Shown here: piece by piece, positions 17,256 to 52,300 of the stretch
Position numbering within the stretch: position 1 is the stretch's first letter
Layout: the number at the start of each line of letters is the position of its first letter
Source of the DNA: Gigantopelta aegis
Lineage: Eukaryota; Mollusca; Gastropoda; Neomphalida; Peltospiridae
Direction: 5' to 3'
NCBI RefSeq assembly: GCF_016097555.1
Contig: NC_054708.1
Location: forward strand, 1,368,382 to 1,432,381
DNA: 64,000 nucleotides
The notes under the pieces: model-generated
Database searches by the model: none
What the model saw: only the letters and a program-made list of their open reading frames with translations
What the model was told of the DNA's origin: nothing
Made by a program: the position numbers and the translations under genes

Positions 17256-17636
17256 ATCGTATATTTTGGTAAAATGTTGGGGTTTTTTTTACAGATTGAT
17301 TTTTCTTTTGATATCTGTTTTATTAGTAGCCTACTACTGTAGCATTTACATATCCAAATTAAACGTCGACATGTGCGTGCTTCATCCATTCCCGAGGAAA
17401 TCCGAGACTGGAGATTGTACCCCTTCTTGCATCGCCACAAAGCGGACTGCCACCCTGAGATTAGGTTTATATACCAAAGCACACACAATTCTACCTTTAT
17501 TCTCTTTGTATTGCATTATTTGTTTTTACTTCAGAGACAATGCAAGTCTAGCTGGATACCTCGGCTGTTCTAGCATTTTGTTTTCACCCCTGTATTAAAA
17601 ATGAGATTTAATCATCATAATTTAATGATAATTTAC
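17256..17636. other. Unassigned sequence, no supported gene
   Basis: Open frames occur on both strands. One plus-strand frame at about 17373-17470 has a plausible composition (contains RDWRLYPFLHRHK), but its opposite strand is also open and no splice sites frame it convincingly. No function is assigned. Confidence 0.3.
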
Positions 17637-18030
17637 CGGCCTCGGTGGCGTCGTGGTTAGGCTATCGGTCTACAGGCTGGTAGGTACTGGGTTCGGATCC
17701 CAGTCGAGGCATGGGATTTTTAATCCAGATACTGACTCCAAACCCTGAGTGAGTGCTCAGCAAGGCTCAATGGGTAGGTGTAAACCACTTGCACCAACCA
17801 GTGATCCATAACTGGTTCAACAAAGGCCATGGTTTGTGCTATCCTGCCTGTGGGAAGTGCAAATAAAAGATCCTTTGCTACTAATCGGAAAGAGTAGCCC
17901 ATGTAATGGCAACAGCGGGTTTCCACTCAAAATCTGTGTGGTCCTTCCTTAACCATATGTCTGATGCCATATAACCGTAAATAAAATGTGTTGAGTGCGT
18001 CATTAAATAAAACATTTCTTTGTTTCTTTT
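17637..18030 (+). mobile_element. Full-length tRNA-headed SINE
   Basis: The head GGCCTCGGTGGCGTCGTGG continues into GGTTAGGCTATCGG (A-box type) and GGGTTCGGATCCC (B-box type), so it is tRNA-derived. The body carries TAAAAGATCCTTTGCTACTA and GAGTAGCCCATGTAATGGC. The 3' part has AAATAAAATGTGTTGAGTGC and ends in TTAAATAAAACATTTC, then T-rich sequence. The head is shared with the element at 39317-39590, and the body and tail with the reversed copy at 56838-57166. Confidence 0.85.
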
Positions 18031-19112: not shown

Positions 19113-19218
19113 ATGTTTGCCAAGTTGAAGGAGAAGATTCAGAAAGAAGGCGGCAACGTTAGCGAAGAGAAAAGCTTTCTGTCACTTCCCCAGCCTGGAC
19201 ACGCCAGCCCGGTAAAAG
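19113..19218 (+). CDS. GOLGA1: golgin-97 exon 1 (start), residues 1-35
   Basis: The acceptor tttctgttttcag ends at 19083, leaving 29 nt of 5'UTR before the ATG. The start MFAKLKEKI matches the conserved vertebrate golgin-97 N-terminus, which fixes the start. The donor is AAAG|gtgagt, phase 1. Confidence 0.88.
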
Positions 19219-19271
19219 GTGAGTAGTTATCTCTCAGTATGAATTGTTCAAAACCTTTTTGTCTCTCCAAC

Positions 19272-19310
<39 letters not shown>

Positions 19311-22300
19311 AGCCTGGACACACGATCACACTGAAATGTACTGGGTTTGCAGCCTGGTACCCACCCAGAGTTAGTTTTAACAACTCCGTTGGTAAGTGTA
19401 AGACGAGCACACTGAAATGTACTGGGTTTGCAGCCTGGTACCCACCCAGAGTTAGTTTTAACAACTCAGTTGGTAAGTGTAAGACGAGCACACTGAAATG
19501 TACTGGGTTTGCAACCTGGTACCCACCCAGAGTTAGTTTTAACAACTCCGTTGGTAAGTTAAGACGAGCACTCTGAAATGTACTGGGTTTGCAGCCTGGT
19601 ACCCACCCAGAGTTAGTTTTAACAACTCCGTTGGTAAGTGTAAGACGAGCACACTGAAATGTACTGGGTTTGCAACCTGGTACCCACCCAGAGTTAGTTT
19701 TAACAACTCCGTTGGTAAGTGTAAGACGAGCACACTGAAATGTACTGGGTTTGCAGCCTGGTACCTACCCAGAGTTAGTTTTAACAACTCCGTTGGTAAG
19801 TGTAAGACCACTACACTGACTTTTCTCTCACTAACCATTAACATAACCACTAACATAACAACTAACATAACAACTAACATAACAACTAACCACTATTAAA
19901 CTCTCTGTCCTGGAGAGACAGCCCAGATAGCTGAGGTGTGTGCCCAGGACAGAATGCTTGAACTTTAATTGGATATGAGCAAAAGTTTGTTTTGTTTAAC
20001 AACACCACTAGAGCACATTGATTTATTAATCATCGGCTATTGGATGGTATAGGTATTAACGTGCATATTCAGAGCAAACTGTTTTAGTGCATGCCTGTCA
20101 TGGGCACAGGTGCTGGCCTCGGCTGACTCTTCCGTTGAGGACAAGAAAGTTTGGGGTGGGTAAGAGAAGGGACCGCCTGCACTGGCAGGTGCAAGAGAGC
20201 ACCAGCAGCCTGACCAGGGTCGGCATCAGGTGGAGGGTTGGTTTTGGTGCTATGAAATTTGAAATGTCCTGTAGGATTAATGCCAAAGGGAAAAAGTGTG
20301 CAATTTGAATGATGGAAATTTGGCGCATTTTTTTTTATAGTCCACCGAAAGGAAAAAGGGAGCTATATAAGTTTTGGAATTTAGTTTGCTGAGAGTAGCC
20401 CATTACTAAGACCTAGATTTTAGAGAGTAGCAAGGGATCTTTTTATATGCACTATCCCACATACAGGATAGCAAATACCACAACCTTTGATATAGCAGTC
20501 ATGGTGCACTGGTTAGAATGAGAAATAGCCAAATGGGCTTACCAATTGTGGATATAAGCATGGAAATAAGTTGAATTGAAATAAATTAATACATGTATCA
20601 CAGGGTTGGAAAATTCCCGTGCCTGGATGTTCGGGGCAACCAGTTTCGCCCATGACGTAAACCCGGTGGGCTACTTGGAGAAAAAACCTAACACCCCCCC
20701 CCCCCTCCAAAACAAACACCTATAATATAATTTTAATAACCACCCCAAGCAAAATATTTGAAATTACTATTCAGTTACTTTACTGGCCACTAATCCACAT
20801 CACATGCTCACATGAACTAAGCAAACTCCAATCAGTCGCCAGCCATACGATTCGCACAGACAGCACGAACAAAATGAAAATATCCTACCTGTACAAATGA
20901 CATGCTTGTATTATATAATATATATTCTTTATTAATAAATGAGACAAATGATAACGTTTAGTTGTAGTTTTATTATTCTTGAAAATAATTATCAGAATCG
21001 GAAATATAAAACATAGATAATTCTGTATTAGAATATTTTGGGACTACCAGAATATGATGCTGGGCTACCACAGTTTAGGTACCTGGTAGCCCAGTGGGCT
21101 ACCACTAAATTGAAACATTTTTCCAACCCTTTATCAGTTTGTTGACTCCTCTTGTAAACAGTGTGTGATTGTTTATTTTGCCAGCCAATGTTAGCCCAGT
21201 TCAGAGTCCTCACGGCAAGAATGGAGTGCCGCCGGTTGATGGTGCTAACAGCGGAGCAGATTCTCCTGCCGGGAGTGTCTTTGGTGAAGAGACGTCAGTA
21301 AGTGAAATCTCTTACAAGAGAAAACAAAGAATGTGTATTTCATAATTTAGAAGATAACTTTGTCTTATTTGAACAAGAGAAAAAAAGAATGTGTGTTTCA
21401 TAATTTAGAAGATTACTTTGTCTTATTTGAACAAGAGAAAAGAAACAAATGTGTGTGTGTGAATCTTAATTCTATTACAGTTTATCACATAATATTACAT
21501 TTTGAGTTACGCCCATACTGGATTATGGTTGTTACTGGAGCCAAATTAGAAGAGTAAGTTTTGTTGGTGTTGTGACATCCCCTTGATCTGTTTTAAATCA
21601 TGTTAAATGTAGGCTTCCTCAAACACATTCCTTACAGTGATATATATTATGTAGTACACCTTTTGTTTTAGGAACATTGATAAGAATATATAGAGAGAGA
21701 GAATAACTAGTTATCTGCTTTATCCTGGGAAGGTAAAAATTGGAAATTTCCCATTCAGCCTGAACAGAATAAAGCCAGTATCCTACGTCACTAACTAATT
21801 ATTATTTTTATCTTGTAGTCCATAAAAATTATGGGGAAAACTATTGTTTCTGTTATTTCAGCCACATTGTACAATGACCTAGAGAGGTCAAATGAGCTAT
21901 TTTGTAATGTAGCTATGTATCTGTCAAAAGTCATAATCTGCTGAAATAGTGGTTGCAGAATAAATATAATTATTATTACAAAACGTATACATGTCTGTAT
22001 CTCTAGCAGTGATGTTTGTGATGATCTCTGTTCACAGTTTACAGAAGACTGTTCATCACAGGAGGAGATGGCAACTCTGTTACTGAAGCGAACGGAGCAG
22101 TGTAAGAAGCTGGAAGCCAAAATCAGTGGTGAGCTTATTTACTTCACCTTCAGAATTGATGCTGAAATAAACATTTGTTTCTAAAACTGGTCATAAAACA
22201 TTTGATTCGAATGCTGGTCAACTCGCCCCAAAACAAACTCGCCCCAAAACCAACTCGCCCCAGTGTTTGGACCTTGCCCCAAACTTCACTGTACTTAAAC

Positions 22301-25300
22301 AATTGTGACAAAATGGATGTCTACAACTTTGGTGTCATTTTAGACATATTACAGTGAAACTCTGCTATTACAACCACTTATTAAACAGATAAATAATAAT
22401 CTGTTACAATGAACTGTCAAACCTATTTTAACGACATTTCTGAGTTTGTCCCTTAGTTCCTGAAAGGAATGATCAAGCAAGGCTTTTGGACTGACTGGTG
22501 TGCATATTCAACAATATTTAATGCACATTATTGCTTAAAATATTGGTATATTAATTGATATGAGTTGACTAAATAGTATGAGTGAGTTGGTAGGGTGCGA
22601 GATGGTTTCGGGGCGAGTTGACTTGCTCCCTTTAATACTGACATGCATGCTATTGCTGAAATATGTGTCATAAAGTGATTGTTTGTCTCACTTGTAAATT
22701 TGATTTTGATCCATTGTCAGTGTACCAGGGCTATTATGTTTCAAACATGTGGGGTGCCACTAACATTAGCATGACAATATTTATGCAGAACTAGGCTAGT
22801 CAAGAATGTTTTTTGTCATATCCAAAATGATGAGTGCATTGTCCGATGTTTTGCAATTATATTTAAGGATCCAATGTTACACTATATATATATGTTATAT
22901 TTGTATTTATTATGTAGAATATGCAGCAGTTATTAAGGAGAAAAGCAGGACAATCAACAAATTAGAACGGGTTGCAAAGAAACATGAGTTTGTTTTAATC
23001 TGACTGTATGTATTTATTGTGTAGAATATGCAGCAGTTTGTTTTAATCTGACTGTATGTATTTATTGTGTAGAATATGCAGCAGTTTGTTTGTATTTATT
23101 GTGTAGAATATGCAGCAGTTTGTTTTAATATGACTGTATATATTTATTGTATAGAATATGCAGCAGTTTGTTTTAATATGACTATGTATTTATTGTGTAG
23201 GATACGCAGCAGTTTTTTTTAATCAGACTGTTTGTATTTATTGTATAGAATATGCAGCAGTTTGTTTTAATACGACTCTATATATTTATTGTATAGAATA
23301 TGCAGCAGTTATCAAGGAGAAAAACAAGACAATTGACAAGTTAGAACTGGTAGTGAAGAAACATGGGGAAGGTGAGCATCATTTACATACAAACACTTTT
23401 AATTAATGGAACATCATAATATCTTTGAAAATACGTCAAGTAACTGCAGTGGATATCTAATTACAAAATTAAATGCTATTAATGTTTAAGGATGTGTACA
23501 TTAATTATTTTTTACAGAGTAAGATATTGGAATATGAAAGAGTATTTATCCATTATATTTTAGTCTTCCCTTAATGAAATAAAAAGGGTAGGATATGTGT
23601 TAATATTGGTGTTACCTTTTGGAAGTGACAATGGCATCAGCATCCACCTCTAAATTTAGCTCTACATTAAATATTTTTGCTCTCAGTTTTTCACAAACCA
23701 AGTCCTAGATCAATAAACATGAGCTATATATTCATTACTTCAAAGACAAATGTCATGTTATGTCTGGGGGGTGGGGGGGTGGTGGGGCATAGCCCAGTGG
23801 TAAAATGCTTGGAGCATGTGTAAATAAAAGATCATTTGTAGATGCTCAATAAGAATAGACTACCGGTATATTGTGATAGCAAGTTTGTTCTCGATAGACC
23901 ACATGGAACAGTTACGATATAACAGGCAGAATCATTAAACAATCTATTCTTATTTTTAAAATGTCTGAATTTTGATTTTCAGGCATTTAGATTAAATCCA
24001 ATCAATTGGTTGAGGTTTTTAATTAATATTTTCAGTGACGGCAAAGAAACTGGAAGAACAAAATGAGAAGTTTCAGCGTTTAACAGCGACAATGGTGGAG
24101 AAATTTGAAAACGAGTTAAAGAAAAAACAGCAGGTAGGTAATTAAAGGATAACCATATGGAGTGTTTCGATTTGATGGTGTTACAGTTGTCTTTCCTCAT
24201 GTTACAGTTGTCTTTCCTCATGTTACAGTAATGTCACTGACCAAAGGTATTAGGTATAACCTCATGTTACAGTTGTCTTTCCTCATGTTACAGTAATGTC
24301 ACTGACCAAAGGTATTAGGTATAACCTCATGTTACAGTTGTCTTTCCTCATGTTACAGTAATGTCACTGACCAAAGGTATTAGGTATAACCTCATGTTAC
24401 AGTTGTCTTTCCTCATGTTACAGTTGTCTTTCTGATGCCCAGAAATGTCACTGACCAAAGGTATTAGGTATAACCTCATGTTACAGTTGTCTTTCTGATG
24501 CCCAGAAATGTCATTGACCAAAGGTATTAGGTATAACCTCATGTTACAGTTGTCTTTTTGATGCCCAGAAATGTCACTGACCAAAGGTATTAGGTATAAC
24601 CTCATGTTACAGTTGTCTTTTTGATGCCCAGAAATGTCACTGACCAAAGGTATTAGGTATAACCTCATGTTACAGTTGTCTTTCTGATGCCCAGAAATGT
24701 CATTGACCAAAGGTATTAGGTATAACCTCATGTTACAGTTGTCTTTCTGATGCCCAGAAATGTCACTGACCAAAGGTATTAGGTATAACCTCATGTTACA
24801 GTTGTCTTTCTGATGCCCAGAAATGTCATTGACCAAAGGTATTAGGTATAACCTCATGTTACAGTTGTCTTTTTGATGCCCAGAAATGTCACTGACCAAA
24901 GGTATTAGGTATAACCTCATGTTACAGTTGTCTTTCCTCATGTTAGTTGTCTTTCTGATGCCCAGAAATGTCACTGACCAAAGGTATTAGGTATAACCTC
25001 ATGTTACAGTTGTCTTTCTGATGCCCAGAAATGTCATTGACCAAAGGTATTAGGTATAACCTCATGTTACAGTTGTCTTTTTGATGCCCAGAAATGTCAC
25101 TGACCAAAGGTATTAGGTATAACCTCATGTTACAGTTGTCTTTTTGATGCCCAGAAATGTCACTGACCAAAGGTATTAGGTATAACCTCATGTTACAGTT
25201 GTCTTTCTGATGCCCAGAAATGTCATTGACCAAAGGTATTAGGTATAACCTCATGTTACAGTTGTCTTTCTGATGCCCAGAAATGTCATTGACCAAAGGT

Positions 25301-28300
25301 ATTAGGTATAACCTCATGTTACAGTTGTCTTTTTGATGCCCAGAAATGTCATTGACCAAAGGTATTAGGTATAACCTCATGTTACAGCTGTCTTTCTGAT
25401 GCCCAGAAATGTCATTGACCAAAGGTATTAGGTATAACCTCATGTTACAGTTGTCTTTCTGATGCCCAGAAATGTCACTGACCAAAGGTATTAGGTATAA
25501 CCTCATGTTACAGTTGTCTTTCCTCATGTTACAGTTGTCTTTCCTCATGTTACAGTTGTCTTTCTGATGTCCAGAAATGTCACTGACCAAAGGTATTAGG
25601 TATAACCTCATGTTACAGTTGTCTTTCTGATGCCCAGAAATGTCATTGACCAAAGGTATTAGGTATAACCTCATGTTACAGTTGTCTTTCTGATGCCCAG
25701 AAATGTCATTGACCAAAGGTATTAGGTATAACCTCATGTTACAGTTGTCTTTCTGATGCCCAGAAATGTCATTGACCAAAGGTATTAGGTATAACCTCAT
25801 GTTACAGTTGTCTTTCTGATGCCCAGAAATGTCATTGACCAAAGGTATTAGGTATAACCTCATGTTACAGTTTATAGTATCAGAATTAGTGTTATTCTTA
25901 TTAGTCCCCTACCAGTCCAACCGGAGGTGACTTTAGGTTTTGTCTTTGTCCTTCTGTCTGTGTGTCCATCTATCACTCATATAGTTTTTTGAGACCTTTT
26001 TCACAATGCCTTGAGATATTGAGTTGACATTTTGTGTATAACTTTATTAAATACTGCTACAGATCACATTTGACTTTCATGACTAGTTACCCATTTTGTC
26101 ACAGAGTTATGGCCCTTGAACCATGGCTCTAGTGGTGTCGTTAAACAAAACTAACGTTTAACTGTAAAGCAGTGTATAAAAGTGAAGTATCACTAACTAC
26201 TCAAGTTACTGAGAGTTCTGAGTTTCAGACACATGGTTCAAATTCTCTTACAGGAACTCCAACAAGCGCAAGAGAAAGTAAAAAATGCAGAAATATTTCA
26301 AAAGACGCTTTTTAAGCGTGAAGAAGAAAATGATGAAGTTCAAGGTTTTACAACTCAAGAATTGGCTAAAGTTAAACACTTGGTGAGTTAAATTGGCTAA
26401 AGGTAAATACCTGGTGAGCTGAATTGGCTAAAGTTAAACACCTGGTGAGTTGAATTGGCTAAAGGTAAATACCTGGTGAGTTGAATTGGCCAAAGTTAAA
26501 CACCTGGTGAGTTGAATTGGCTAAAGGTAAATACCTAGTGAGTTGAATTGGCTAAAGTTAAACATCTGTTCAGTCAATTTGGCTACAATTAAACACCTGG
26601 GAGGTAAGTGGACTGAGATTAAACACCTGGGAGGTAAGTGGACTGAGATTAAACACCTGGGAGGTAAGTGGACTGAGATTAAACACCTGGGAGGTAAGTG
26701 GACTGAGATTAAACACCTGGGAGGTAAGTGGACTGAGATTAAACACCTGGGAGGTAAGTGGACTGAGATTAAACACTTAATGAGCAGAACCTAACAGCTG
26801 TGTCAGTTTCTACTTGTATACCTCTGTTCAATGTATTTGTATGTCTGTGTTCAACGTATTTGTGTGTCTGTGTTCAACGTATTTGTATGTCTCTGTTCAA
26901 CATATTTGTATGTCTCTGTTCAACATATTTGTATGTCTCTGTTCAACATATTTGTATGTCTGTGTTCAACGTATTTGTATGTCTGTGTTCAACGTATTTG
27001 TATGTCTGTTCAACGTATTTGTATGTCTCTGTTCAACGTATTTGTATGTGTCTCTGTTCAATGTATTTGTGTGTCTCTGTTCAACATATTTGTGTGTCTG
27101 TGTTCAACGTATTTGTGTGTGCGTGTTCAACGTATATTTGTATGTGTGTTCAATGTATTTGTATGTCTGTGTTCATTGTATTTGTATGTCTGTTCAGGGG
27201 GTTAACACAGGGGGTATAATGTCATTTAGAGTGTTAAAGATTAAAAACTATCATGCTGACAGATAAAGGGTTAACACAGCCGATATAATGTCATTTAGTG
27301 TGTTAAAGATTAAAAACTATCACACTGACAGATAAAGGGTTAACACAGCAGATATAATGTCATTTAGTGTGTTAAAGATTAAAAACTATCATGCTGACAG
27401 ATAAAGGGTTAACACAGCCTATATAATGTCATTTAGTGTGTTAAAGATTAAAAACTATCACACTGACAGATAAAGGGTTAACACAGCCTATGTAATGTCA
27501 TTTAGTGTGTTAAAGATTAAAAACTATCATGCTGACAGATAAAGGGTTAACACAGCTTATGTAATGCCATTTAGTGTGTTAAAGATTAAAAACTATCATG
27601 CTGACAGATAATTAAGGGGTTAACACAGCCGATATAATGTCATTTAGTGTGTTAAGTATTAAAAACTATTATGCTGACAGATAAGGGGTTAATACAGCAA
27701 ATATAATGTTTAGTGTGTTAAAGACTAAAAATTATCACACTGATATACAAGGGGTTAACACAAGCTTGTACAATGTCATTTACTGTGTTAAAGACTGAAA
27801 ACAATGACACTGACAGACAAGGGGTTAACACAACTCTGTATAATGTCATTTACTGTGTTAAAGACTGAAAACAATCACACTGACAGACAAGGGGTTAACA
27901 CAAGTCTGTATAATGTCATTTACTGTGTTAAAGACTGAAAACAATGACACCGACAGACAAGGGTTAACACAACCTTGTATAATGTCATTTACTGTGTTAA
28001 AGACTGAAAACAATCACACTGACAGACATGGGGTTAACACATGTCTGTAGGATGCCCATTAGAGTGGTTTAGAATAAAATTACCACACTAACAGTCAAAG
28101 GGTTAACATTACAGTGTTGAAGAATAAAACCTAACAAAAGATAGACCAGAAGAGACTACAAATCACGAAAAGATCATGCTATTAGCAGGTTGATTTTACT
28201 GTGTGTGCATCAAACTCGGTCATTACGTACTTTGTATTTGTGTAAATATTTGTCTGTTAAGCTTTGTACACTAAGATTGACTTGATGACCTAAATGTTGT

Positions 28301-31300
28301 TTCATATTGTTTTTAATTGCAGAAAATAAATTACATTTCCAAAAGAAACATAGAGTTTGCTGACCTGGAGAATGAACTGAAAGTTCTTCAAAGAAATGCA
28401 GTCTGTGCAATGTATTTGTGTGTCTTGTGTTCAATGTATTTGTATGTCTGTGTTCAATGTATTTGTATGTCTGTTCAATGTATTTGTATGTCTCTGTTAA
28501 TGTATTTGTATGTCTCTGTTCAATGTATTTGTATGTCTGTGTTCAATGTACTTGTATGTCTCTGTTCAATGTATTTGTATGTCTATTTGTATACTTGTGC
28601 TCAATGTATTTGTATGTCTGTGTTCAATGTATTTGTATGTCTGTGTTCAATGTATTTGTATGTCTGTTCAATGTATTTGTATGTCTGTTCAATGTATTTG
28701 TATGTCTGTGTTCAATGTATTTGTATGTCTGTGTTCAATGCATTTGTATATCTGTGTTCAATGTATTTGTATGTCTCTGTTCAATGTATTTGTATGTCTC
28801 TGTTCAATGTATTTGTATATCTCTGTTCAATTTATTTGTAGCTTCTCATTGCGGAAGAAGATTTGATGAAAGGTAAAAGTGACCTTGACTTCAAAACGAA
28901 GCAGTGTGAACTGTTTGAGAAAACAATAAAGGACCAGGAAAGTGATCTAGTCGACATAAAAGAGAAGCTGAAAGATTTAGAGACAGAGAGGTAGTCTTTG
29001 ACTTCATTCTCGTCATCATTAAAATGGGTGTCTGTCTTTGTATCTTAGTCTGTGTGTGTGGTGTGTGTGGTATGTGTGTGTGTGTGTATGTGTGTTAGTG
29101 TGTGTGTGTGTTGTGTTAGTATGTGTGTGTTAGTGTGTCTGTGAGTGTGTGTTAGTGTGTGTGTGTGTCTGTGTGTTTGTTAGTGTGTCTATGTGTTAGT
29201 GTGTGTGTGTGAGATTATGGACATGTATGTTTGTGTGTATTTATATGTAACAAATAAATTAATCTGAAATGAACATAAAATACTTTTAATATATTGATAA
29301 TCTTATTTTATTATTATTATTATTATTATTATTTTTTTTTTCATAACCATACAGTAATACATTATACAATATATGTTTTTTACAGAACATATCCAACAGC
29401 AGAAAACAAATATGTAAATGACGTATGTATATAATAATTGATAATACAAGCCCTGGCAATAAAACAACTTTAAACACCAGGGCTTGAAATTAGCAAGTGG
29501 CAAACAGCAATTGATATTCAAATTACACATCTCAAAGTATTGTATATTCGGATAAGAATTTACTATCAACTGTGTCGACATTAATACTAGTATTAAACTA
29601 ATTTAATTAAATTGTAGATTCTTTGATTGATGAGCACTTCTGTCGGTGAATACTTTGCTATATCTTCCTAGCATGTGTGTACTTTCAGTGAGCGATTAAG
29701 AGAAGAAACCATCCAGCACAGTAAAGTGGTAGATATCATGACCAGGGAAAAGGCTTTGTTTGAAAAGAGACTTGAAGAAGTGAACTCGGAACTAACAGAG
29801 GTATTTATGCATTAACAGCTTGGTAGAATACAAGGGGTTAATGCAAGGTGTTAATGCAGAACTATGTAATGTTATGTATGTGTTAAAGATTAAAAACTAT
29901 CATGCTGACAGATAATTAAGGGGTTAACACAGCCGATATAATGTCATTTAGTGTGTTAAAGATTAAAAATTATCACACTGACAGATAAAGGGTTAACACA
30001 GCCGATATAATGTCATTTAGTGTGTTAAAGATTAAAAACTATCACACTGACAGATAAAGGGTTAACACAGCCTATATAATGTCATTTAGTGTGTTAAAGA
30101 TTAAAAACTATCACACTGACAGATAAAGGGTTAACACAGCCTATGTAATGTCATTTAGTGTGTTAAAGATTAAAAACTATCATGCTGACAGATAAAGGGT
30201 TAACACAGCTTATGTAATGCCATTTAGTGTGTTAAAGATTAAAAACTATCATGCTGACAGATAATTAAGGGGTTAACACAGCCGATATAATGTCATTTAG
30301 TGTGTTAAGTATTAAAAACTATTATGCTGACAGATAAGGGGTTAATACAGCAAATATAATGTTTAGTATGTTAAAGACTAAAAATTATCACACTGATATA
30401 CAAGGGGTTAACACAAGCTTGTACAATGTCATTTACTGTGTTAAAGACTGAAAACAATGACACTGACAGACAAGGGGTTAACACAAGTCTGTATAATGTC
30501 ATTTACTGTGTTAAAGACTGAAAACAATCACACTGACAGACAAGGGGTTAACACAAGTCTGTATAATGTCATTTACTGTGTTAAAGACTGAAAACAATGA
30601 CACTGACAGACAAGGGGTTAACACATGTCTGTAGGATGCCCATTAGAGTGGTTTAGAATAAAATTACCACACTAACAGTCAAAGGGTTAACATTACAGTG
30701 TTGAAGAATAAAACCTAACAAAAGATAGACCAGAAGAGACTACAAATCACGAAAAGATCATGCTATTAGCAGGTTAATTTTACTGTGTGTGCATCAAACT
30801 CGTCATTACGTACTTTGTATTTGTGTAAATATTTGTCTGTTGTTAAGCTTTGTACACTAAGATTGACTTGATGACCTAAATGTTGTTTCATATTGTCTTT
30901 AATTGCAGAAAATAAATTACATTTCCAAAAGAAACATAGAGTTTGCTGACCTGGAGAATGAACTGAAAGTTCTTCAAAGAAATGCAGATGTTTACCAAAA
31001 CAAAGTAAATTTTGTCATTAGTGTTATTTGTTTGAAGTGGTTATAAACAAATCTGAACTATGACAGCCTCTCCATACATTTTTATGTTTGTGCAGAACAT
31101 GTTATGCAAATTTCAATGATTTTACAGATCAGGTAGATGTTATTAAGTTGTTAGAACAGAATATTCATTAAACTATCATCAATGAATTATACAAATACAA
31201 ACTTATAAAATCATCCCAGATCTGTCATCTGTATTTTGAATGTGTTCAAAAGTTAAAGTTTGATTTTGTTTAACGACACCACTAGAGTTCATTGATTTAT

Positions 31301-37300: not shown

Positions 37301-40300
37301 ACTTGTTCATTGTTAGATCGAACATAAGATTATCTAACAGTTCACACCAGACAGTATAGTTATGTAATACTTGTTCATTGTTAGATCGGACATAAGATTA
37401 TCTAACAGTTCACACCAGACAATATAGTTAAATAATACTTGTTCATTGTTAGATCGGACATAAGATTCTTATTATAGTTATGTAATACTTGTTCATAAGA
37501 TTACATAAGATTACTAACAGTTCACACCAGACAATATAGTTATGTAATACTTGTTCATTGTTAGATCGAACATAAGATTATCTAACAGTTCACACCAGAC
37601 AATATAGTTATGTAATACTTGTTCATTGTTAGATCGAACATAAGATTATCTAACAGTTCACACCAGACAATATAGTTAAATAATACTTGTTCATTGTTAG
37701 ATTGGACATAAGATTATCTAACAGTTCACACCAGACAATATAGTTAAATAATACTTGTTCATTGTTAGATTGGACATAAGATTATCTAACAGTTCACACC
37801 AGACAATATAGTTATGTAATACTTGTTCATTGTTAGATCGGACATAAGATTATCTAACAGTTCACACCAGACAATATAGTTATGTAATACTTGTTCATTG
37901 TTAGATCGGACATAAGATTATCTAACAGTTCACACCAGACAATATAGTTAAATAATACTTGTTCATTGTTAGATCGAACATAAGATTATCTAACAGTTCA
38001 CACCAGATAATATAGTTATGTAATACTTGTTCATTGTTAGATCGAACATAAGATTATCTAACAGTTCACACCACACAGTATAGTTATGTAATACTTGTTC
38101 ATTGTTAGATCGAACATAAGATTATCTAACAGTACACACCAGACAATATAGTTAAATAATACTTGTTCATTGTTAGATTGGACATAAGATTACTTAACAA
38201 TACACACCAGACAATATAGTTAAATAATACTTGTTCATTGTTACATTGGACATAAGATTACCTTACAGTTCACACCAGACAATATTGTTAAATAATACTT
38301 GTTCATTGTTAGATCGAACATAAGATTATCTAACAATACACACCAGACAATATAGTTAAATAATACTTGTTCATTGTTAGATCTGACATAAGATTATCTA
38401 ACAATACACACCAGACAATATAGTTAAATAATACTTGTTCATTGTTAGATTGGACATAAGATTATCTAACAGTTCACACCAGACAATATAGTTAAATAAT
38501 ACTTGTTCATTGTTAGATTGGACATAAGATTACCTAACAGTTCACACCAGACAATATAGTTAAATAATACTTGTTCATTGTTAGATCGGACATAAGATTA
38601 TCTAACAATACACACCAGATAATATAGTTAAATAATACTTGTTCATTGTTAGATCGGACATAAGATTACTTAACAATACACACCAGACAATATAGTTATG
38701 TAATACTTGTTCATTGTTAGATCGGACATAAGATTATCTAACAGTTCACACCAGGCAGTATAGTTATGTAATACTTGTTCATTGTTAGATCGGACATAAG
38801 ATTATCTAACAGTTCACACCAGACAGTATAGTTATGTAATACTTGTTCACTGTTAGATCGGACATAAGATTACCTTACAGTTCACCCCAGACAATATAGT
38901 TCATGCAAGATTTACTTTTTTAAGTAAACATTTTATGGATTTTTTTTTATCCATATACCAATATTGGATTTTTGTCATTAATTTTGTAATTATTTATTTA
39001 ATTATATGTTAATTCAAAGTCTTTTTAGACATATGCCTATCTTAACCCCATACAGGTATCAACAACTTGCTTACATAACACATTAAGAGAAATTAATTTT
39101 CACCTTTCACCCTAAAATGTAAGCAAATAATGCATTGTTAAAATATAATAATGAGCTATTTAGTATTATAAAACGTAGTTAAATTGGAACTGTTTTGTTT
39201 TGGCGTACAGATATTCTAGGTGACAAGCTAATTAATATGCATGGACCTATTACTATGTAAAACGGTAACGTATGAAATAAAATGGTTCATTCAATTTATT
39301 TTTTGTATTATGTAACTGGCCTCGGTGGTGTCGTGGTTAAGCCATCAGACTACTGGCTGGTAGGTACCGGGTTTGCAGCCTGGTACCGGCTCCAACCCAG
39401 AGTGAGTTCTTAAGGGCTCGGTGGGTAGGTGAAAGGCCACTAAACCCTTCTCTCTCACACTAACCAACTGACAACTAAGCCACTGTCCTGGACAGACAGC
39501 CCAGATAGCGGAGGTGTGTGCCCAGGACAGCATGCTTGAACCTTAATTGGATATAAGCACGAAAATAAGATGAAATGAAATGAATATATTATTTAGGATT
39601 ACAGGATAAATAAAATAACCAATTACAGGAAAGCACATACCATGACCTTTGATATACCAGTCGTGGCCCACCGTTGAGGATCAATCCTAGTCTGACTGTA
39701 CATCAAGTGAGCGCTTTACCACTGGGTTATGTCCTGCCCTATATTGAGGAAAACAGAAAAAACCCTGTATTTGATTAATCTAATATCTGATATGTTAACC
39801 ATTGATGTTGTCCATTTGGCATTATAACAGTTGTGTTGATGATCGTGTTTTAGAAGAATGAGTTGGAGAGCTTGTTGCAGCAGTCTAAGCTCGACTGGGT
39901 GGTGAAGGAGTCCCAGCTGAGAGGGAAGATCACGTCACTCGAGTCGCAGATATTCGACATTGAGTCGGCGCGTGAACACGAACGCAGCGAAGTCAGCCAG
40001 CAGATTGTACGACATTGTCTAACAGATAACAATAATATATGGGTTTTTTAATGATGAAATTATGTTTTTAACTAATTCTATAACTATATTACTATTTAGT
40101 CTAACAGATAACAATAATATATGGGGTTTTAACGATGAATTCATGAAATTATGTTTTTAACTAATCCTATAATCGTAATATTATTTAGTCTAGTGGATAA
40201 CAAAAATATGTGGGGGTTTTTTTTCTTTTTCGACAGATGAATTTTTAACTAATTCAATAATTGTAACTTTTAAACATTAAGAAGAGTTATTTTGGGGATT

Positions 40301-43300
40301 TATTATATTCAGTAGTAGTGTAGATTTGGTACTTCCTTAACTTTGTTTCTGTAAATAGTGGCAGCTTTTAAAATTTGTTTGATTAAAATTCCTGAGTTTT
40401 ATACTAAAGTTATCTGGATTAAAAATGCTGAAATGGCTTCAAATACACAAAAAAGAATAGTATTTTGAATTTAGAATATTTAAATGAAAACACAACTACA
40501 GTTTGAATAAACTGGAGATTTAAGCTTTTAACAAAGTTAAAATATTGGATCATACATTGATTATCGCTTGGTAATTTCTCTTGTACTGTTAATGTTCTAA
40601 ATGGTTAAATATTAAAAATAAACTAGACATTTCAGTTTTTAACAAAAGCTAAAAAATTAGATTGTACAGTCATTGTCGCATGGTAATTTCTCTTGTGCTG
40701 CCAATGTTCTGAATGCTTAAATATTAAAAATATTAGATTGTACAGTCATTGTCGCATGGTAAGTTCTCTTGTGCTTCCAATGTTCTGAATGCTTAAATAT
40801 TAAAAATATTAGATTGTACAGTCATTGTCGCATGGTAATTTCTCTTGTGCTGCCAATGTTCTGAATGCTTAAATATTAAAAATATTAGATTGTACAGTCA
40901 TTGTCGCATGGTAATTTCTCTTGTGCTGCCAATGTTCTGAATGCTTAAATATTAAAAATATTAGATTGTACAGTCATTGTCGCATGGTAAGTTCTCTTGT
41001 GCTGCCAATGTTCTGAATGCTTAAATATTAAAAATATTAGATTGTACAGTCATTGTCGCATGGTAAGTTCTCTTGTGCTGCCAATGTTCTGAATGCTTAA
41101 ATATTAAAAATATTAGAGTGTACAGTCATTATGGCTGTATAATATTCTCTTGTGCTGACAAGAGAATGAATGCTTAAATGTTAAAAATGTTAGATTGTAC
41201 AGTCATTATTGCTTGGTAAGTTCTCTTGTGCTGCCAATGTTCTGAATGCTTAAATATTAAATATATTAGAGTGTACAGTCATTATTGCTTGGTAATTTCT
41301 CTTGTGCTGCAAATGTTCTAAATGCTTAAGGGTGTATAGTACCAAATCGAATCCCATAGATGACAATAGTAACATATGTGGCTAAAACTCCTACCTGCAA
41401 TGTATCAATCGACATAAATGCCACGGATATAAATACTACCACCCCTCACACTTAAAGTGAATCAGAAAAAAATGGGGGTCAAGCTGCTCGTTTCTGAGAT
41501 AACGGGTAGCGTCTATGACTACCCTAGTTCCGCACAAAATTCGAGTACTTTTTTTCACAGGTACCCCATACATGTTTCAAGCACAAGGCAACTTGACACA
41601 TTGGTACTAGATGAAATAAAATTGCATTTTTTTTTTTACCCAGATAAAACTATTATTTTACCCAGATAAAACTATTATTTTTTACAACCAACACACTCAC
41701 ATTTATAACCAATCACAGGACTTGTGGTATTCACTTCTCTATCAAAAGTTGGGTGCACCTCGAACTTTGACCCAGCCGGAAGTTATTTGGTGTAGTACTA
41801 CCTTAAATATTAAAAATATTAGATTGTACAGTCAATTATTGCTTGGTAAATTCTCTTGTGCTGCCAATGTTCTAAATGCTTAAATATTAAAAATATTAGA
41901 TTGTACAGTCATTATTGCTTGGTAAGTTCTCTTGTGCTGCCAATGTTCTGAATGCTTAAATATTAAAAATATACAAGAATAAAAGAATCATTCATATAGG
42001 TACATAATTTGTTGTCAGGGTTGAGGCTTGCCGAGTCCCTGACATCATATTATGTACCCGAGGGTGGAATAGCCCTGTCCCACATGGATACATAATGGGG
42101 GATTATTTTTCTCCCATCCAGTAGATAAAAAACAAGCATTCTGGGAAAACGTGAAAAACCTACATTTTTTTTTTTTTTTATCTTACAATAAAATTATCAT
42201 AACCATTGAAAATTGAAAACGATAGTATAATTTCATTATGACAGCAGGTTTCCTTGTTTTTATAAAATATAAAAAACATTTCTTGAGTTATTTTTCCATT
42301 TACGTGATGTCACACGTTAATATCAGCTCGAACTATAGAAGTCACGTGGTCATGCAAGACCGATTTATTCTGCATGGGCTGATGTCATGGAATACGCCTG
42401 TCTTGCATGGCTAGGGATGGGAGAAATTTTAGTTTTTAACATTTAGTTAAAATATTAAGATTATAAAAGTATTATTGATGTGTCCCTGCAGGCTCACTTT
42501 GAGAGTCGGGAACAGGAGTACATAGAGAAGCAGCTACTATTTGAGAAGGAGGTGCAGGGGCTGGAGGCGGGGTACAGCGAACTGCAGGCAGAAATCTCAC
42601 ACCGAGCAGCTGAACTCGAGTCTCACAGGAAAAACTTAGAAGCAAAGACCAGGAGCGAAGTGTTCCTCATAGAGAAGGTGAAGATGACAATGATTAAATG
42701 TCCTTTACATTCATTACAGTATAACATCATCCCATTGGTAAGGGACTTTGTTCATTTCTCAATGAACGAACAAATTACGTCGTATGGGAATGTCATATCT
42801 GATGATGTCAAATTATATGGGCAAGTTGTCTTATTGAGTGTTATTGTTTATGGACCAAAAATAATTCAAAATAAAGTATGGCAGTTTAGTGTTATTATTA
42901 GCAAGTATAATTCAGATTTAATTATAAGTATTGTCTGTTATTAATTTTACGTTCATCTGGGTATGAACAAAAAAAATCATCCGCAAACTTATGTGAGAAT
43001 GGTTTTGCCGATTCACACAATTTGTGAATGTGTTTTTTTTTGTTCATACCCTGATGAACATAAAAGAAATAACAGACAATCCTTAAATGGATTTCATTGC
43101 TTTGTTATACTACTGTAGAATACTTTATTTTCGCGTTTTTCGCGTGTGAATGAAATTCGTGAAAATATATTCCACGCGAAAATAAAGGCCAATAAAAAAT
43201 AAAATTAAAAAAATGTAGTCTCGTTCAACTATACCACATTAGTTTCCGATGTACGAGGCTAGTAGTAACAAAGCGGTGCTCCCTTCTGTCACGGAACAAA

Positions 43301-46300
43301 CCACAAAACACAAAAGCTGTTTAAAAATTTAAATCAAGAACACGATAAGTACATACATAATAAAACAATACTAACACTAAAAAGCTTTATGCTGTTTTCC
43401 TTCGCATGTGCTAGCGATCAGTTCATCAGACAGAGTCTACACATTTTCAACGACGGAAGTAAACGTGCATTATCACAGTATATTAAAAATGTGGAAGTGA
43501 AAAAATCCGGACTGGGCTATGTTCAGATGTTTCACAATTTTATTTTTATTTTTCGCAAAGGCCTGCAAGTCTGAAACCTGTGTGTATTAAATCTGTTTTT
43601 CCTTTCATAGCATCATGTGTGCGAATAAGCCACTGGGCATGAATGGGTTTAATCATACTCAGACGTAAATCAACTTGCACTTTCTTGTGCCTTCAAATTT
43701 TGTTTTGTTTGTTTTCGGTTTTTGTGTTTATAACAATTATAAGGATTAAGAAAAACTGCATGCGGTAAGCACCTTCTGTAAGTTTATTAACGTGTAAACA
43801 ATAAAGTCTTGATTGGTTAAAGCAGGAAAACTATTGTTTTATGTGTATAGCACTCGTGTGTACATGTAGGATTAGTTCTACAGCTTAGCGTAACAACCGG
43901 CAAAACTAAGTTCCGTTTTTAAAACAAAATTATTGACATCTGTACTTCGTTTTTTATTGATAATTGATGGGGGTTGGGGGATTCGCGAAAATAAATGTTC
44001 ACGAATTGACCCATTTTCATTAAATCGCGAAAATTTTATCCCGCGAAAATAAAGTATTCTACAGTATCACCTGGTTGTAATTGGAAATTAATTGACATTC
44101 AGTCAATAAGTCTTCATTGGTATAATAATTATTAAAAAACAATTAATTTCTGATCTAGAGATATTAATCTTTGTTTTCTGCAGGTGTCGAGTTATAAGTG
44201 TCTTTATATTTAACCATCAGGTTTCTGATCTAGAGATATTAATCTTTGTTTTCTGCAGGTGTCGAGTTCTAAGTGTCTTTATATTTAACCATCAGGTTTC
44301 TGATCTAGAGATATTAATATTTGTTTTCTGCAGGTATCGAGTTATAAGTGTCTTTATATTTAACCATCAGGTTTCTGATCTAGAGATATTAATATTTGTT
44401 TTCTGCAGGTGTCGAGTTCTAAGTGTCTTTATATTTAACCATCAGGTTTCTGATCTAGAGATATTAATCTTTGTTTTCTGCAGGTGTCGAGTTATAAGTG
44501 TCTTTATATTTAACCATCAGGTTTCTGATCTAGAGATATTAATATTTGTTTTCTGCAGGTGTCGAGTTCTAAGTGTCTTTATATTTAACCATCAGGTTTC
44601 TGATCTGGAGATATTAATCTTTGTTTTCTGCAGGTGTCGTGTTCTAAGTGTCTTTATATTTAACCATCAGGTTTCTGATCTGGAGATATTAATATTTGTT
44701 TTCTGCAGGTGTCGTGTTATAAGTGTCTTTATATTTAACCATCAGGTTTCTGATCTAGAGATATTAATCTTTGTTTTCTGCAGGTATCGTGTTATAAGTG
44801 TCTTTATATTTAACCATCATGTTTCTGATCTAGAGATATTAATATTTGTTTTCTGCAGGTGTCGAGTTATAAGTGTCTTTATATTTAACCATCAGGTTTC
44901 TGATCTAGAGATATTAATATTTGTTTTCTGCAGGTGTCGAGTTATAAGTGTCTTTATATTTAACCATCAGGTTTCTGATCTAGAGATATTAATATTTGTT
45001 TTCTGCAGGTGTCGAGTTATAAGTGTCTTTATATTTAACCATCAGGTTTCTGATCTGGAGATATTAATATTTGTTTTCTGCAGGTGTCGAGTTCTAAGTG
45101 TCTTTATATTTAACCATCAGGTTTCTGATCTGGAGATATTAATATTTGTTTTCTGCAGGTGTCGAGTTCTAAGTGTCTTTATATTTAACCATCAGGTTTC
45201 TGATCTGGAGATATTAATATTTGTTTTCTGCAGGTGTCGTGTTATAAGTGTCTTTATATTTAACCATCAGGTTTCTGATCTAGAGATATTAATCTTTGTT
45301 TTCTGCAGGTGTCGTGTTATAAGTGTCTTTATATTTAACCATCAGGTTTCTGATCTAGAGATATTAATCTTTGTTTTCTGCAGGTGTCGTGTTATAAGTG
45401 TCTTTATATTTAACCATCAGGTTTCTGATCTAGAGATATTAATCTTTGTTTTCTGCAGGTGTCGAGTTCTAAGTGTCTTTATATTTAACCATCGGGTTTC
45501 TGATCTAGAGATATTAATATTTGTTTTCTGCAGGTATCGTGTTATAAGTGTCTTTATATTTAACCATCAGGTTTCTGATCTAGAGATATTAATCTTTGTT
45601 TTCTGCAGGTATCGTGTTATAAGTGTCTTTATATTTAACCATCAGGTTTCTGATCTAGAGATATTAATCTTTGTTTTCTGCAGGTGTCGAGTTCTAAGTG
45701 TCTTTATATTTAACCATCGGGTTTCTGATCTAGAGATATTAATATTTGTTTTCTGCAGGTATCGTGTTATAAGTGTCTTTATATTTAACCATCAGGTTTC
45801 TGATCTGGAGATATTAATATTTGTTTTCTGCAGGTGTCGAGTTATAAGTGTCTTTATATTTAACCATCAGGTTTCTGATCTAGAGATATTAATATTTGTT
45901 TTCTGCAGGTGTCGAGTTCTAAGTGTCTTTATATTTAACCATCAGGTTTCTGATCTGGAGATATTAATCTTTGTTTTCTGCAGGTGTCGTGTTCTAAGTG
46001 TCTTTATATTTAACCATCAGGTTTCTGATCTAGAGATATTAATCTTTGTTTTCTGCAGGTGTCGAGTTCTAAGTGTCTTTATATTTAACCATCGGGTTTC
46101 TGATCTAGAGATATTAATATTTGTTTTCTGCAGGTATCGTGTTATAAGTGTCTTTATATTTAACCATCAGGTTTCTGATCTGGAGATATTAATATTTGTT
46201 TTCTGCAGGTGTCGAGTTATAAGTGTCTTTATATTTAACCATCAGGTTTCTGATCTAGAGATATTAATATTTGTTTTCTGCAGGTGTCGAGTTCTAAGTG

Positions 46301-49300
46301 TCTTTATATTTAACCATCAGGTTTCTGATCTGGAGATATTAATCTTTGTTTTCTGCAGGTGTCGTGTTCTAAGTGTCTTTATATTTAACCATCAGGTTTC
46401 TGATCTGGAGATATTAATATTTGTTTTCTGCAGGTGTCGTGTTATAAGTGTCTTTATATTTAACCATCAGGTTTCTGATCTAGAGATATTAATCTTTGTT
46501 TTCTGCAGGTATCGTGTTATAAGTGTCTTTATATTTAACCATCATGTTTCTGATCTAGAGATATTAATATTTGTTTTCTGCAGGTATCGAGTTATAAGTG
46601 TCTTTATATTTAACCATCAGGTTTCTGATCTAGAGATATTAATATTTGTTTTCTGCAGGTGTCGAGTTATAAGTGTCTTTATATTTAACCATCAGGTTTC
46701 TGATCTGGAGATATTAATATTTGTTTTCTGTAGGTGTCGAGTTCTAAGTGTCTTTATATTTAACCATCAGGTTTCTGATCTGGAGATATTAATATTTGTT
46801 TTCTGCAGGTGTCGTGTTATAAGTGTCTTTATATTTAACCATCAGGTTTCTGATCTAGAGATATTAATCTTTGTTTTCTGCAGGTGTCGTGTTATAAGTG
46901 TCTTTATATTTAACCATCAGGTTTCTGATCTAGAGATATTAATCTTTGTTTTCTGCAGGTGTCGTGTTATAAGTGTCTTTATATTTAACCATCAGGTTTC
47001 TGATCTAGAGATATTAATCTTTGTTTTCTGCAGGTGTCGAGTTCTAAGTGTCTTTATATTTAACCATCGGGTTTCTGATCTAGAGATATTAATCTTTGTT
47101 TTCTGCAGGTGTCGAGTTCTAAGTGTCTTTATATTTAACCATCAGGTTTCTGATCTAGAGATATTAATATTTGTTTTCTGCAGGTATCGTGTTATAAGTG
47201 TCTTTATATTTAACCATCAGGTTTCTGATCTAGAGATATTAATCTTTGTTTTCTGCAGGTATCGTGTTATAAGTGTCTTTATATTTAACCATCAGGTTTC
47301 TGATCTAGAGATATTAATCTTTGTTTTCTGCAGGTATCGAGTTATAAGTGTCTTTATATTTAACCATCAGGTTTCTGATCTAGAGCGACAACTTGAGGAG
47401 TTGAACGAGAAGTTTGAAACTGTTCACAAAGATTCCAGACTCCAGCAAGTGGAGCTCACAGAAAGTGAAAAAGGTCAAACACAAAATACACTATTACTGT
47501 CATTTAAAAAAAAAAAAAAAAAAAATTATATTTAAATATTTTTGTTCATAACCAACCATACAGTAATACAAAATTATATAATAGATTTTGTTTTGATTTT
47601 TTGTTTTTTACAGAACCATAACCAACAATAGAACAATAAATATATATATATATTTTTTTAAATTATTATTTAAATAATTTTGTTCATAACCACTCATGTA
47701 GTAATACAAAATTAGATAATAGATTTTGTTTGGACAGCAATAGAAAAATAAATAAATAAATGTATGTATATAATAATCACTCATGACAATAGGAACATGT
47801 AAATGCCAAGGCAGTAAGTTTCTTTATTTTGATAGCATACTTCATTCAGTTACATATTTTATAATTGTTCTCATTTCTGATTTTAAATATATCAACATAT
47901 TAATGTCATTAATAATATAAATTATGGACAAGGTCTAGTATGTTGAAAAACTTCTGCAGTCTGATGATAGGTTTTGCAAACAGCAAAATATTTCAAACAA
48001 TTAATTAACTCACGGTAGACTGTTTCAGTATTAAAATGTTTGGATAATTAAATAAGCAAATACACAACTGAATTATGTTACGTAAATACAGGCCTGTAAA
48101 CATTACAGTAACAATCGTTTGATTCATGCATTGGTTTTGCAATTTTATTTGGTGTCACTGATTTACCACTTGCGTACAATTTATTGAATGATCAGTCTGA
48201 GGCGTATATCTTTCGGAATGCTGAGTATCTTAACTGGATTATACCACATAGTCTGATTTGTGGAAGGTTTACTGTAAACATTCTAATCTGATGATAATAA
48301 GCTGGTTTGATGAACACACAAAGATTCGTTGTTGGTGTGGAAGCCAAGTATATTAATTAGATTATACTACATAATAATATGTGTGAAATGCTTATTGTAA
48401 ACATTCTAATCTGATGATAATAAGCTGGTTTGATGAACACACAAAGATTCGTTGTTGGTGTGGAAGCCAAGTATATTAATTAGATTATACTACATAATAA
48501 TATGTGTGAAATGCTTATTGTAAACATTCTAATCTGATGATAATAAGCTGATCTAATGAACACACAAAGATTCGTTATTGACATGGAATGCCGAGTTGTG
48601 AATGAGATTTTATAACTTACCAGTGATATGCATGTCATAAACCCATGTGATAATTTAGTGTATTTACCCGGTTAATAATGGTATGCAAATCTGCAAGGTC
48701 TCTTGGTAATGTGTTGCTGTGGATGGGTCATTTGCTTACAAGCCAACAAGACCTGTGTACCTGAGTGTAATGTTTTCAAATATTTAGTTAAAATGCAGAG
48801 CCTCGACAAATACTGATTAACATAGACTCTGTTGATATTTTCCATATTAAAAAATACTTGTGATGAATCCTTTATATACCACATAATAATATTTTTGAAA
48901 TGTTTATTGTAAACATTCTGATCTGATGATGATAATCTGGTTTCAGACAAAGACTCGTTGTTGGTGCGGAATGCCGAATTGTCACAGCAGATGGAGACGC
49001 ATCGTCAGCAGACCGTGGAGAGACAACAAGAGTTACAGGACGAGATCGCCGACAAGTCTCAGACCATTGACAAGCTGAGGCTGTCGGTGTCACAATTTGA
49101 AGAGAAAGTATCAGAGTACAAGTCACAGGTACTGGTGTAGATGGGTCGTAGTAAACATTGACAAACTGAAGCAGTCGGTGTCACAATTTGAAGAGAAAGT
49201 ATCTGAGTACAAGTCACAGGTACTGGTGTAGATGGGTCGTAGTAAACATTGACAAGCTGAGGCTGTCGGTGTCACAATTTGAAGAGAAAGTATCAGAGTA

Positions 49301-52300
49301 CAAGTCACAGTTACTTGTGTAGATGGGTAGTAAATATTGACAAGCTAGAAATGACTATTCAGGACATTTAGTGACATATTTAGTTCATACTTTGTAATGT
49401 TAACTTTTTCTGATGATACACCTGTTCATCAGTATGATGATGTGGTAAATACATGATTTGTGGAAAATTATTATTAGCCAGTTTATTGAGTTGAACAATA
49501 ATGAATGAATTTTAAAAGAAATCCCATTTTGAAAAATATATCGGTATTTGGTTAATTGAATGAGTGTCAGTCATCAATATAATCATGTAATAAATATATG
49601 ATTGACAGTAAATGTTTGTTAAATATCAATATGTCCGACACCTGACACTGGCAGGTTAAACATTGGATTCCTCAATTTTGGATGTATTACATCAGTTTGT
49701 CACTAATAGATTGTCTTTATTTAATGTATTATTTGTCTGTTGTGTGAAAGTCATCCCAGATGATGTGTTCTATTCATCACAGATACAACACTTTGAAAGT
49801 GCCCAGACCCAGTCTATAGAAAAAAACATTGCCCACGATGAACTTGAGAAAACTGTAAGGTCATTGCAAGATCAGATTGCAGAGAAAAATAAGGTGAGCA
49901 TCTATGTAATATTATTGAAATTATTTGACATCTTTGGAAAGTGCCATTGTTCCACATGACAAAGAATCATAGTCTCTAAAAGAAGTTTTATATTTGATGT
50001 GGATTTCCAAGATGTAAAATATGTTATTTGGCAAATCTTTCAAATTACCACTTTAACATGTTGTTAAAAGTCCTTTTGGAAGTTAAAGACCAATAGACAC
50101 AATTGTGTACTTTCTACTGAATTAAAAAAGAGAGTTTTATTTTCATGGTTTCGACAGAGTTTGTATTTTTAGAAATTATTAATGATGTATGTGGCCAGTA
50201 AAACTGAACTGCCATCATGTTAAGACTTCTGTTTTCTTCATTTCAACCTGACACAGAATATGTATTTGTTTAATTACTAATGAAGTATATGGCCAGTAAA
50301 ACTGAACTACCATCACGTCAAGTCCTCTCTTTACTTCATTTCAACCTGACACAGAATATGTATTTGTTTAATTAGTAATGAAGTATGTGGCCAGTAAAAC
50401 TGACCTGCCATCACATTAAGACTTCTCTATACTTCATTTCAACCTTACCCAGATGTTGAAGAAACAGGAGCAGACACTGAAGGATCTCCGGATAACCCTG
50501 CAGCGCGAGTTAAAGGTGCAATCTCTGCCGAACGATGAGTCCTCGGAGCTGAGGGAATCGTCCAACTCCCCAGTCACCAGCAGGAAGTCCGACTCGAACC
50601 GGCGTTCGGACCAGTACAAGCACAACGCGTCTGAGCCGTGGAACAACCCGCATCTCACTCATAAGAACCAGATGGGCGACCAGTCGTATGCACAGGTCTC
50701 GGCCGCCGCCCTCGAGAGTCAGGACGATGCCAAGCTGAAACGCGGCATGGCGGGGATACGGCAGGAGCTCGACAAAGACGTTAACTTCCAGTACCTCAAA
50801 CACGTCATACTCAAGTTCTGTTGTAGCAGGGAGGCGGAGGTAGGTCTTGTTTCATTTTAGTATGCAATGTTATTAGACCCCTACCTGTCAATCTGGAGGG
50901 GACTATAGGTTTATCTCCGTCCTTCTGTCCATCCGTCCATCCATCCATCCATCCGTCCATCTGTTCATCTCACATATAGTTTTCTGGATGTTTTTTCACA
51001 ATGCCTTGAGATATTGAGCTGAAATTTTGTGTATAGTTTTATCATATACTGTGACAGATCAAGTTTGACAGAGTTATGGCCCTTGAACTTAGGAGAAAGA
51101 AAACTTTTTTTTCCAGGATTTGTTTTTGTAATGCCTCAAGATATTGAGCTGAATTTTGTGTATAGCTTTATCATGTTCTGTTACTGGTTAAGTTTGACTT
51201 TTACAGCAATTTACCAATTTTTTTACAGAGTAATGGCCCTTGAACTTAGGAGATATGAAAATTATATTTTAGGATGTTTTTTTTTTTTGGCAGTGCCTGA
51301 AAATATGGAGCTAAAATTTTGTGCACATGTTTACTATGTACTATTACAGATCAAGTCTGACTTTCATGTTCACTATGTACTATTACAGATCAAGTCTGAC
51401 TTTGGTGTTTACTGTGTACTATTACAGATCAAGTCTGACTTTGATGTTCACTATGTACTATTACAGATCAAGTCTGACTTTCATGTTCACTGTGTACTGT
51501 TACAGATCAAGTCTGACTTTGATGTTCACTGTGTACTGTTACAGATCAAGTCTGACTTTGATGTTCACTGTGTACTGTTACAGATCAAGTCTGACTTTGA
51601 TGTTCACTGTGTACTGTTACAGATCAAGTCTGACTTTGATGTTCACTGTGTACTGTTACAGATCAAGTCTGACTTTGATGTTTACTGTGTACTGTTACAG
51701 ATCAAGTCTGACTTTGATGTTTACTGTGTACTGTTACAGATCAAGTCTGACTTTGATGTTTACTGTGTACTGTTACAGATCAAGTCTGACTTTGATGTTT
51801 ACTATGTACTATTACAGATCAAGTCTGACTTTCATGCCGATTTTCACAGAGTTAAATTTAGGAGATATAAACATTTGTTCAGCACAGTAGGGGAGGTGTA
51901 TTGTTTCAGCAGTACTCACAAAATGCTTGTTTTTATTTAAGTACATCTAACAAACATGATTACCAAATCTGAAACTATCCACAACATTTGAACTATTTTC
52001 AGTTTCACTTTTTTATACTGCTCTTTACAATCTTTTTTATTTAACGTTTCATATTTTTATATTGATGATAATCATCGATTATTTCATATATTTAGCATTG
52101 TTTGACACCCAAAAGCCAATGTATTATTTGTGCTGGGTTGATGTGAAACATTCATTCATTCATTAAAGGTCCTATAAAGTTGAAACTGCAATATTTAGTT
52201 GTGTTCACATTTATTTGTAATGAATAACTACAAATTAATTGATCCCACGCATAATCTTTACTCCATAATCAACTCAAGAATAATAAAGGTTTAAAGTTTT

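Follow-up and report, generated by a model that had tools for sequence, protein, structure and literature searches.

Tandem arrays at exon borders of golgin-97 in the vent snail Gigantopelta aegis: probable mirage-type minisatellites

The gene for golgin-97 (GOLGA1) of Gigantopelta aegis, a snail of deep-sea vents, carries tandem arrays that run across the borders of its exons at several junctions. The gene lies in the window analysed here, a stretch of 64,000 nucleotides covering positions 1368382-1432381 of its contig. The pattern is real and striking, yet largely ordinary at such a density of minisatellites. We consider it probable that these arrays are mirage-type minisatellites, by-products of a dense turnover of tandem repeats, perhaps with a slight preference for places close to exon edges; mirages, as named in amphioxus (lancelets), are tandem repeats spanning exon-intron boundaries (available parts of PMC3087553 and PMC3902484).

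Arrays at the exon edges of golgin-97

The gene model consists of 20 coding exons in consistent phase with no stop in frame, and a GRIP domain was found in the encoded protein. Its best protein match is NCBI golgin subfamily A member 1-like isoform X2 from Gigantopelta aegis, which is identical apart from exon 12, missing exactly. Exon 12 (36518-36613), the sole exon absent from isoform X2, is an in-frame cassette of 32 residues. In a search of isoform X2 against the genome (1.149 Gb), 20 of 20 among the matches listed fall on the contig of golgin-97, and none of them points to a second haplotype from which repeat-length polymorphism could be read. The exon numbers of an earlier note on this DNA are those of the 20-exon model, and its estimate that less than 8% of the gene is coding was borne out (7.9%).

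Arrays called by Tandem Repeats Finder (TRF) were lengthened by wrap-around alignment and then set against the exon model; the introns hold arrays of many unrelated units (Table 1). An edge was taken as strictly captured if an array holds intron plus at least 3 exon bases at the true border. Six arrays span the true border contiguously, namely at the acceptors of exons 4 and 16 and at the donors of exons 6, 10, 11 and 17. A further array, at the exon 17 acceptor, was found by homology; it lies 334 bp away from the exon, and in the three copies aligned an insertion is present and the acceptor AG is lost. With this array included, the captured junctions amount to four donors and three acceptors. 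Hence, of the nine junctions which the earlier note had named as edge-containing, seven stand, while the arrays at the acceptors of exons 7 and 19 are merely flush with the border (±1 base). Its weaker cases at exons 1 and 14 did not hold, as the arrays contain no edge and lie about 103 bp (exon 1) and about 10 bp (exon 14) away from it. The exon 16 array, which reaches 3.2 kb, is open in the exon 16 frame over 44110-47532 (1,141 codons); splicing to a decoy acceptor of this kind within it would add in-frame blocks of 25 residues.

Displaced copies of exon edges are also found inside the gene. The copy in intron 6 (about 1.1 kb) shares 92% identity overall with its source in intron 8 and exon 9, but only 2 substitutions and 2 indels separate the last 362 bp, and the exon 9 nucleotides are identical; this exon 9 edge likewise appears as an extra match in the genome search with isoform X2. 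As judged by eye from the repeat list, the copy is flanked by two blocks of one 23-bp unit, and it may have arisen when an array broke and the repair drew on a template 2.6 kb distant. Such a near-identical copy is a sign of ongoing duplication and counts in favour of repeat turnover as the source of the arrays. The copy upstream of exon 4, judging by its alignment, is an older duplicate of most of that exon. In the last intron, a 39-bp array (51327-51836) contains the acceptor-like motif TGTTACAG, which matches no known exon edge.

Table 1. Golgin-97 coding region, arrays at its exon edges and displaced copies (positions in the window)
Feature	Position	Strand	Basis or remark
Golgin-97 (GOLGA1) coding region	19113..52877	+	20-exon model, NCBI protein match, GRIP domain
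Decayed copy of exon 4, upstream of exon 4: 69/75 nt, acceptor kept, no donor at the matching place	22904..22986	+	alignment
~48-bp array with the start of exon 4 (14 nt) and its acceptor	22987..23310	+	TRF, wrap-around alignment
31/30-bp array with the end of exon 6 (24 nt) and its donor	26359..26776	+	TRF, wrap-around alignment
Copy, in intron 6, of the intron 8 array with the exon 9 acceptor and 79 exon nt	27266..28401	+	source 29845-30987
23-bp array flush with exon 7 acceptor, no exon sequence	28402..28840	+	wrap-around alignment
40-bp array, exon 10 donor and only 3 exon nt	31669..32476	+	TRF, wrap-around alignment
36-bp array, exon 11 donor and 8 exon nt	32971..33485	+	TRF, wrap-around alignment
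75-bp array, 43 copies, with the start of exon 16 (15 nt) and its acceptor	44147..47385	+	TRF, wrap-around alignment
123-bp array with homology to the acceptor region of exon 17 and 26-37 exon nt	48215..48612	+	alignments
91-bp array, last 64 nt of exon 17 and donor	49065..49346	+	TRF, wrap-around alignment
98-bp array flush with exon 19 acceptor, 1 exon nt	50154..50453	+	wrap-around alignment

Placement of arrays in golgin-97 and in other genes

Chance placement within golgin-97 was assessed by Monte Carlo simulation for 25 arrays with a unit of at least 20 bp, excluding arrays of shorter period and the one beyond the stop codon; each array was collapsed to one unit and the seeds were placed randomly. 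The 25 arrays make up 44.8% of the gene length. Edge-spanning arrays number 6 compared to 2.7 expected (P 0.043), or 7 if the exon 17 acceptor is included (P 0.012), and 14 of the 25 arrays lie within 50 bp of an exon where 5.4 are expected (P 1.3e-4), all of these P values being post hoc and overstating the case because the earlier note had picked the gene for its pattern. Counted against the array density of deep introns, the outer 100 bp of the golgin-97 exons hold 7 array ends vs 4.8 (P 0.21).

The comparison of arrays with exon edges that had been suggested for the genome was run on a sample of 150 edges (74 acceptors, 76 donors), which belong to 83 exons at 63 loci covering 250 kb, with three neighbouring pairs of loci overlapping. 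Sample exons were taken from matches to the Myosin_head and kinesin profiles with their surroundings. From the 80 Myosin_head matches listed, 70 were entered, three of which were then dropped for more than two stops and two for want of a usable edge, leaving 65 exons; those left out either carry internal stops (C644:96920, both matches on C782, C1061:48507, both remaining rows of C1254 and C8:45231078) or have none (C644:97760, C1061:46389, C2:4148699). For kinesin, 18 of the 124 matches listed were used. The first 30 loci had been viewed before some later regions were chosen; as 70 of 80 rows were finally entered, the room for selection bias is small but not nil. The minimum period was 15 bp in the sample counts vs 20 bp in the Monte Carlo set, and expected counts reflect how dense arrays are in intron sequence lying over 50 bp from an exon.

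Arrays cover 12.5% of the sampled loci. They overlap 7 of the 150 edges, where the deep-intron density predicts 8.9 for the outer 100 bp of exons; the sample thus shows no overall excess of edge-overlapping arrays, only the zone from -30 to +25 bp around the edge being enriched. All seven overlaps fall in the myosin set, at five donors (L036 at C1:27055465 and at C1:27053116, L010, L042, L045) and two acceptors (L049, L037). Within golgin-97, the excess of edge-spanning arrays is modest, and its P values are post hoc. Golgin-97 stands out because it is unusually rich in arrays (45% of its length vs 12.5% in the sampled loci) and because its arrays cluster at exon edges.

Origin of the arrays

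If the arrays are by-products of repeat turnover, tandem duplications of short segments would arise densely in the gene regions of the snail genome, and a duplicated segment of about 30-120 bp would by chance span an exon border. As the structure of the arrays shows, the intact exon retains its own splice site at one array end, and the extra copies, most of them with a decoy, sit in the intron. The array might then grow and homogenise by slippage, unequal exchange or break repair. The exon-proximal site would be chosen, probably by exon definition, which should favour the proximal copy because it is nearest to the exon's real opposite site; isoform X2 fits use of the proximal site at all edges it contains. 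Selection may well remove arrays that reach far into an exon; array ends are scarce 30-100 bp inside the sample exons (2 in 10,477 bp vs 6.2 at the deep rate, P 0.054). Also in favour of this account are the recurrence of edge-overlapping arrays in other genes at close to the number that array density predicts, the age of the exon edges, which are older than the arrays, the lack of a splice-motif excess in deep arrays and the precedent of normally spliced mirages in amphioxus.

Several points weigh against this account. Uniform placement does not predict the crowding of array ends in the zone from -30 to +25 bp around the exon edge, where golgin-97 has 9 ends vs 2.5 (3.7-fold, P 0.001) and the sample 10 vs 4.7 (2.1-fold, P 0.02; 2.1-2.7 fold and P 0.007-0.026 across thresholds), with P values uncorrected for the choice of a zone that was made after the golgin-97 data. 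Moreover, only three of the seven sample overlaps (L010, L049, L036 at C1:27053116) are clean arrays of many copies, the others being degenerate (L037 with 76% and L036 at C1:27055465 with 67-72% match) or short, at 2.0-2.4 copies (L042, L045). For the sample, edges were assigned not from annotation but with a splice score whose training set was the 19 introns of golgin-97.

The crowded zone, together with the 14 golgin-97 arrays close to exons, would suit the view that tandem duplication has true hot spots at exon edges, for instance at nucleosome or methylation boundaries, through R-loops or by polymerase pausing. This we hold to be rather unlikely, given that exon-overlapping arrays are not in excess overall, that the kinesin subset alone (35 edges) is not enriched in the zone (1 vs 1.05), that array ends piling up at a barrier set by selection would partly give the same pattern, and that deep arrays lack splice-motif enrichment while the zone itself was picked after the fact. 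A mutational process starting at exon-intron boundaries, as the earlier note had proposed, agrees with the narrow zone but finds no backing in the overall count or in kinesin. Possible, if tentative, is a more definite version: in this snail, and perhaps in further lineages with mirages, the last 30 bp of the exon and the first 25 bp of the intron would form a true hot spot, with tandem duplications beginning or ending there about 2-4 times more frequently than elsewhere, and golgin-97 would record many such events. As to seeding by microhomology at AG/GT, which had also been put forward, 85 deep-intron array units showed no excess of donor- or acceptor-like motifs over 1,700 random segments, and their acceptor scores were if anything lower. 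This speaks against AG/GT-seeded duplication, which was rejected on these grounds.

The direction of events was judged from 14 orthologues chosen from the 120 listed. In 14 of 14, the residues at the captured edges could be aligned with no all-gap block, and eight of the nine edges reach a mean identity of 43-86%, compared to 41% for the whole protein; the donor edge of exon 17 shows only 21%. Since the edges align to coding sequence in orthologues, the exon edge is taken as the source and the array as the product, least surely at the exon 17 donor; on these alignments, the exon edges predate the arrays. The reverse, exon edges that arose from arrays by exonisation or intron gain, could draw on the poor conservation at this donor and on the capacity of tandem arrays to yield introns (a model in the available parts of PMC3087553 and PMC2812944), but with the captured edges aligning in 14 orthologues it is scarcely credible and was rejected.

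The earlier note had further considered that selection retains arrays only where the true splice site gains a shield or buffer from the new copies. In its favour, the arrays at exons 4 (4 decoys), 6 (13), 10 (12), 11 (13) and 16 (80), five of the nine, have several decoys whose score equals or exceeds that of the true site; at the acceptors of exons 7, 17 and 19 and the donor of exon 17, however, there are 0 or 1. Recent homogenisation explains strong decoys equally well, and decoys equal to the true site are a hazard rather than an obvious shield. The variability of the splice-site columns, measured as the share of non-consensus letters with missing copies counted as change, amounts to 12% vs an array mean of 19.5% for AG at exon 4, 14 and 50% vs 16.4% for GT at exon 6, 14 and 10% vs 12.6% for GT at exon 10, 0% vs 8.5% for GT at exon 11, and 11 and 7% vs 4.4% for AG at exon 16. 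At these five arrays, there is no consistent trend toward more or less variation; a decay of decoys under selection was dropped accordingly, and shielding appears very improbable. Decoy scores and column variation fit young, homogenised arrays, with no sign in either of selection for or against decoys. Highly doubtful, too, is an assembly artefact, i.e. arrays expanded or misjoined in assembly. Assemblies of G. aegis were made from PacBio reads with wtdbg2 (PMC7895826) or from short reads (PMC7736800), as far as the available text of these papers goes. Against an artefact, many unrelated units occur at many exons of several genes, and the exons are intact and agree with the NCBI protein.

Outside golgin-97, the window holds an array with about 97 copies of a 41-bp unit, located upstream of the gene (6381-10340), and a large array of 30-32 bp units, approximately, downstream of it (60550-63751). 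The segment at about 17636-17725 presumably resembles the head of a tRNA-derived SINE.

Comparison with known systems

Intron gain by tandem genomic duplication is reportedly the subject of PMC4974935 and has reportedly been treated by Gao and Lynch and by Zhuo et al. As in that process, a segment with splice signals has been duplicated within a gene; unlike there, no new intron is indicated in golgin-97, and the captured coding edges are ancestral. Rogers is cited on the same subject in the available part of PMC3087553. In human genes within segmental duplications, variable internal tandem repeats at exon-intron boundaries have been described (PMC2812944, as far as available). These are likewise minisatellites at such boundaries, but they can create new introns and alternative transcripts, whereas the one snail isoform found splices past the copies. 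Along with the intron-gain papers, these human repeats and the lancelet mirages were the relevant finds among the papers listed in our literature searches, and no molluscan case of a splice-junction array was recognised among them; nothing wider is claimed.

As far as these searches reach, the present arrays extend splice-junction minisatellites beyond lancelets, to several genes of a repeat-rich mollusc. They offer a natural system in which to study how one site is selected for splicing when dozens of near-identical decoys surround it, and whether intron gain is fed by tandem arrays; they also illustrate that a striking pattern in a single gene can largely follow from high array density. The closest counterpart had been overlooked in the earlier note, which knew of no described family of splice-junction-seeded satellites. 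Canestro 2002 is said to be the original report, on Adh. According to the accessible parts of PMC3087553 and PMC3902484, mirages occur in Adh3, the globins BflGb6 and BflGb9, troponin C and PGBD5, with units of 10-72 bp in Adh3 and of about 150-160 bp in the globins; they sit at donors or acceptors and carry AG/GT in many copies, while normal splicing is undisturbed. Compared with this description, the snail differs in being a gastropod host with seven such junctions in one gene and up to 43 copies over 3.2 kb. At the same time, a minisatellite-like unit spans the boundary here as well (at 7 golgin-97 junctions and, in the sample, at 7 of 150 edges, of which 3 have clean many-copy arrays), donors and acceptors are both hit (4 and 3 in golgin-97, 5 and 2 in the sample), and AG/GT is present in many, though not all, units, the AG being lost in copies at the exon 17 acceptor. 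Because the structural features of mirages are thus found, we class the golgin-97 arrays with the mirages of amphioxus.

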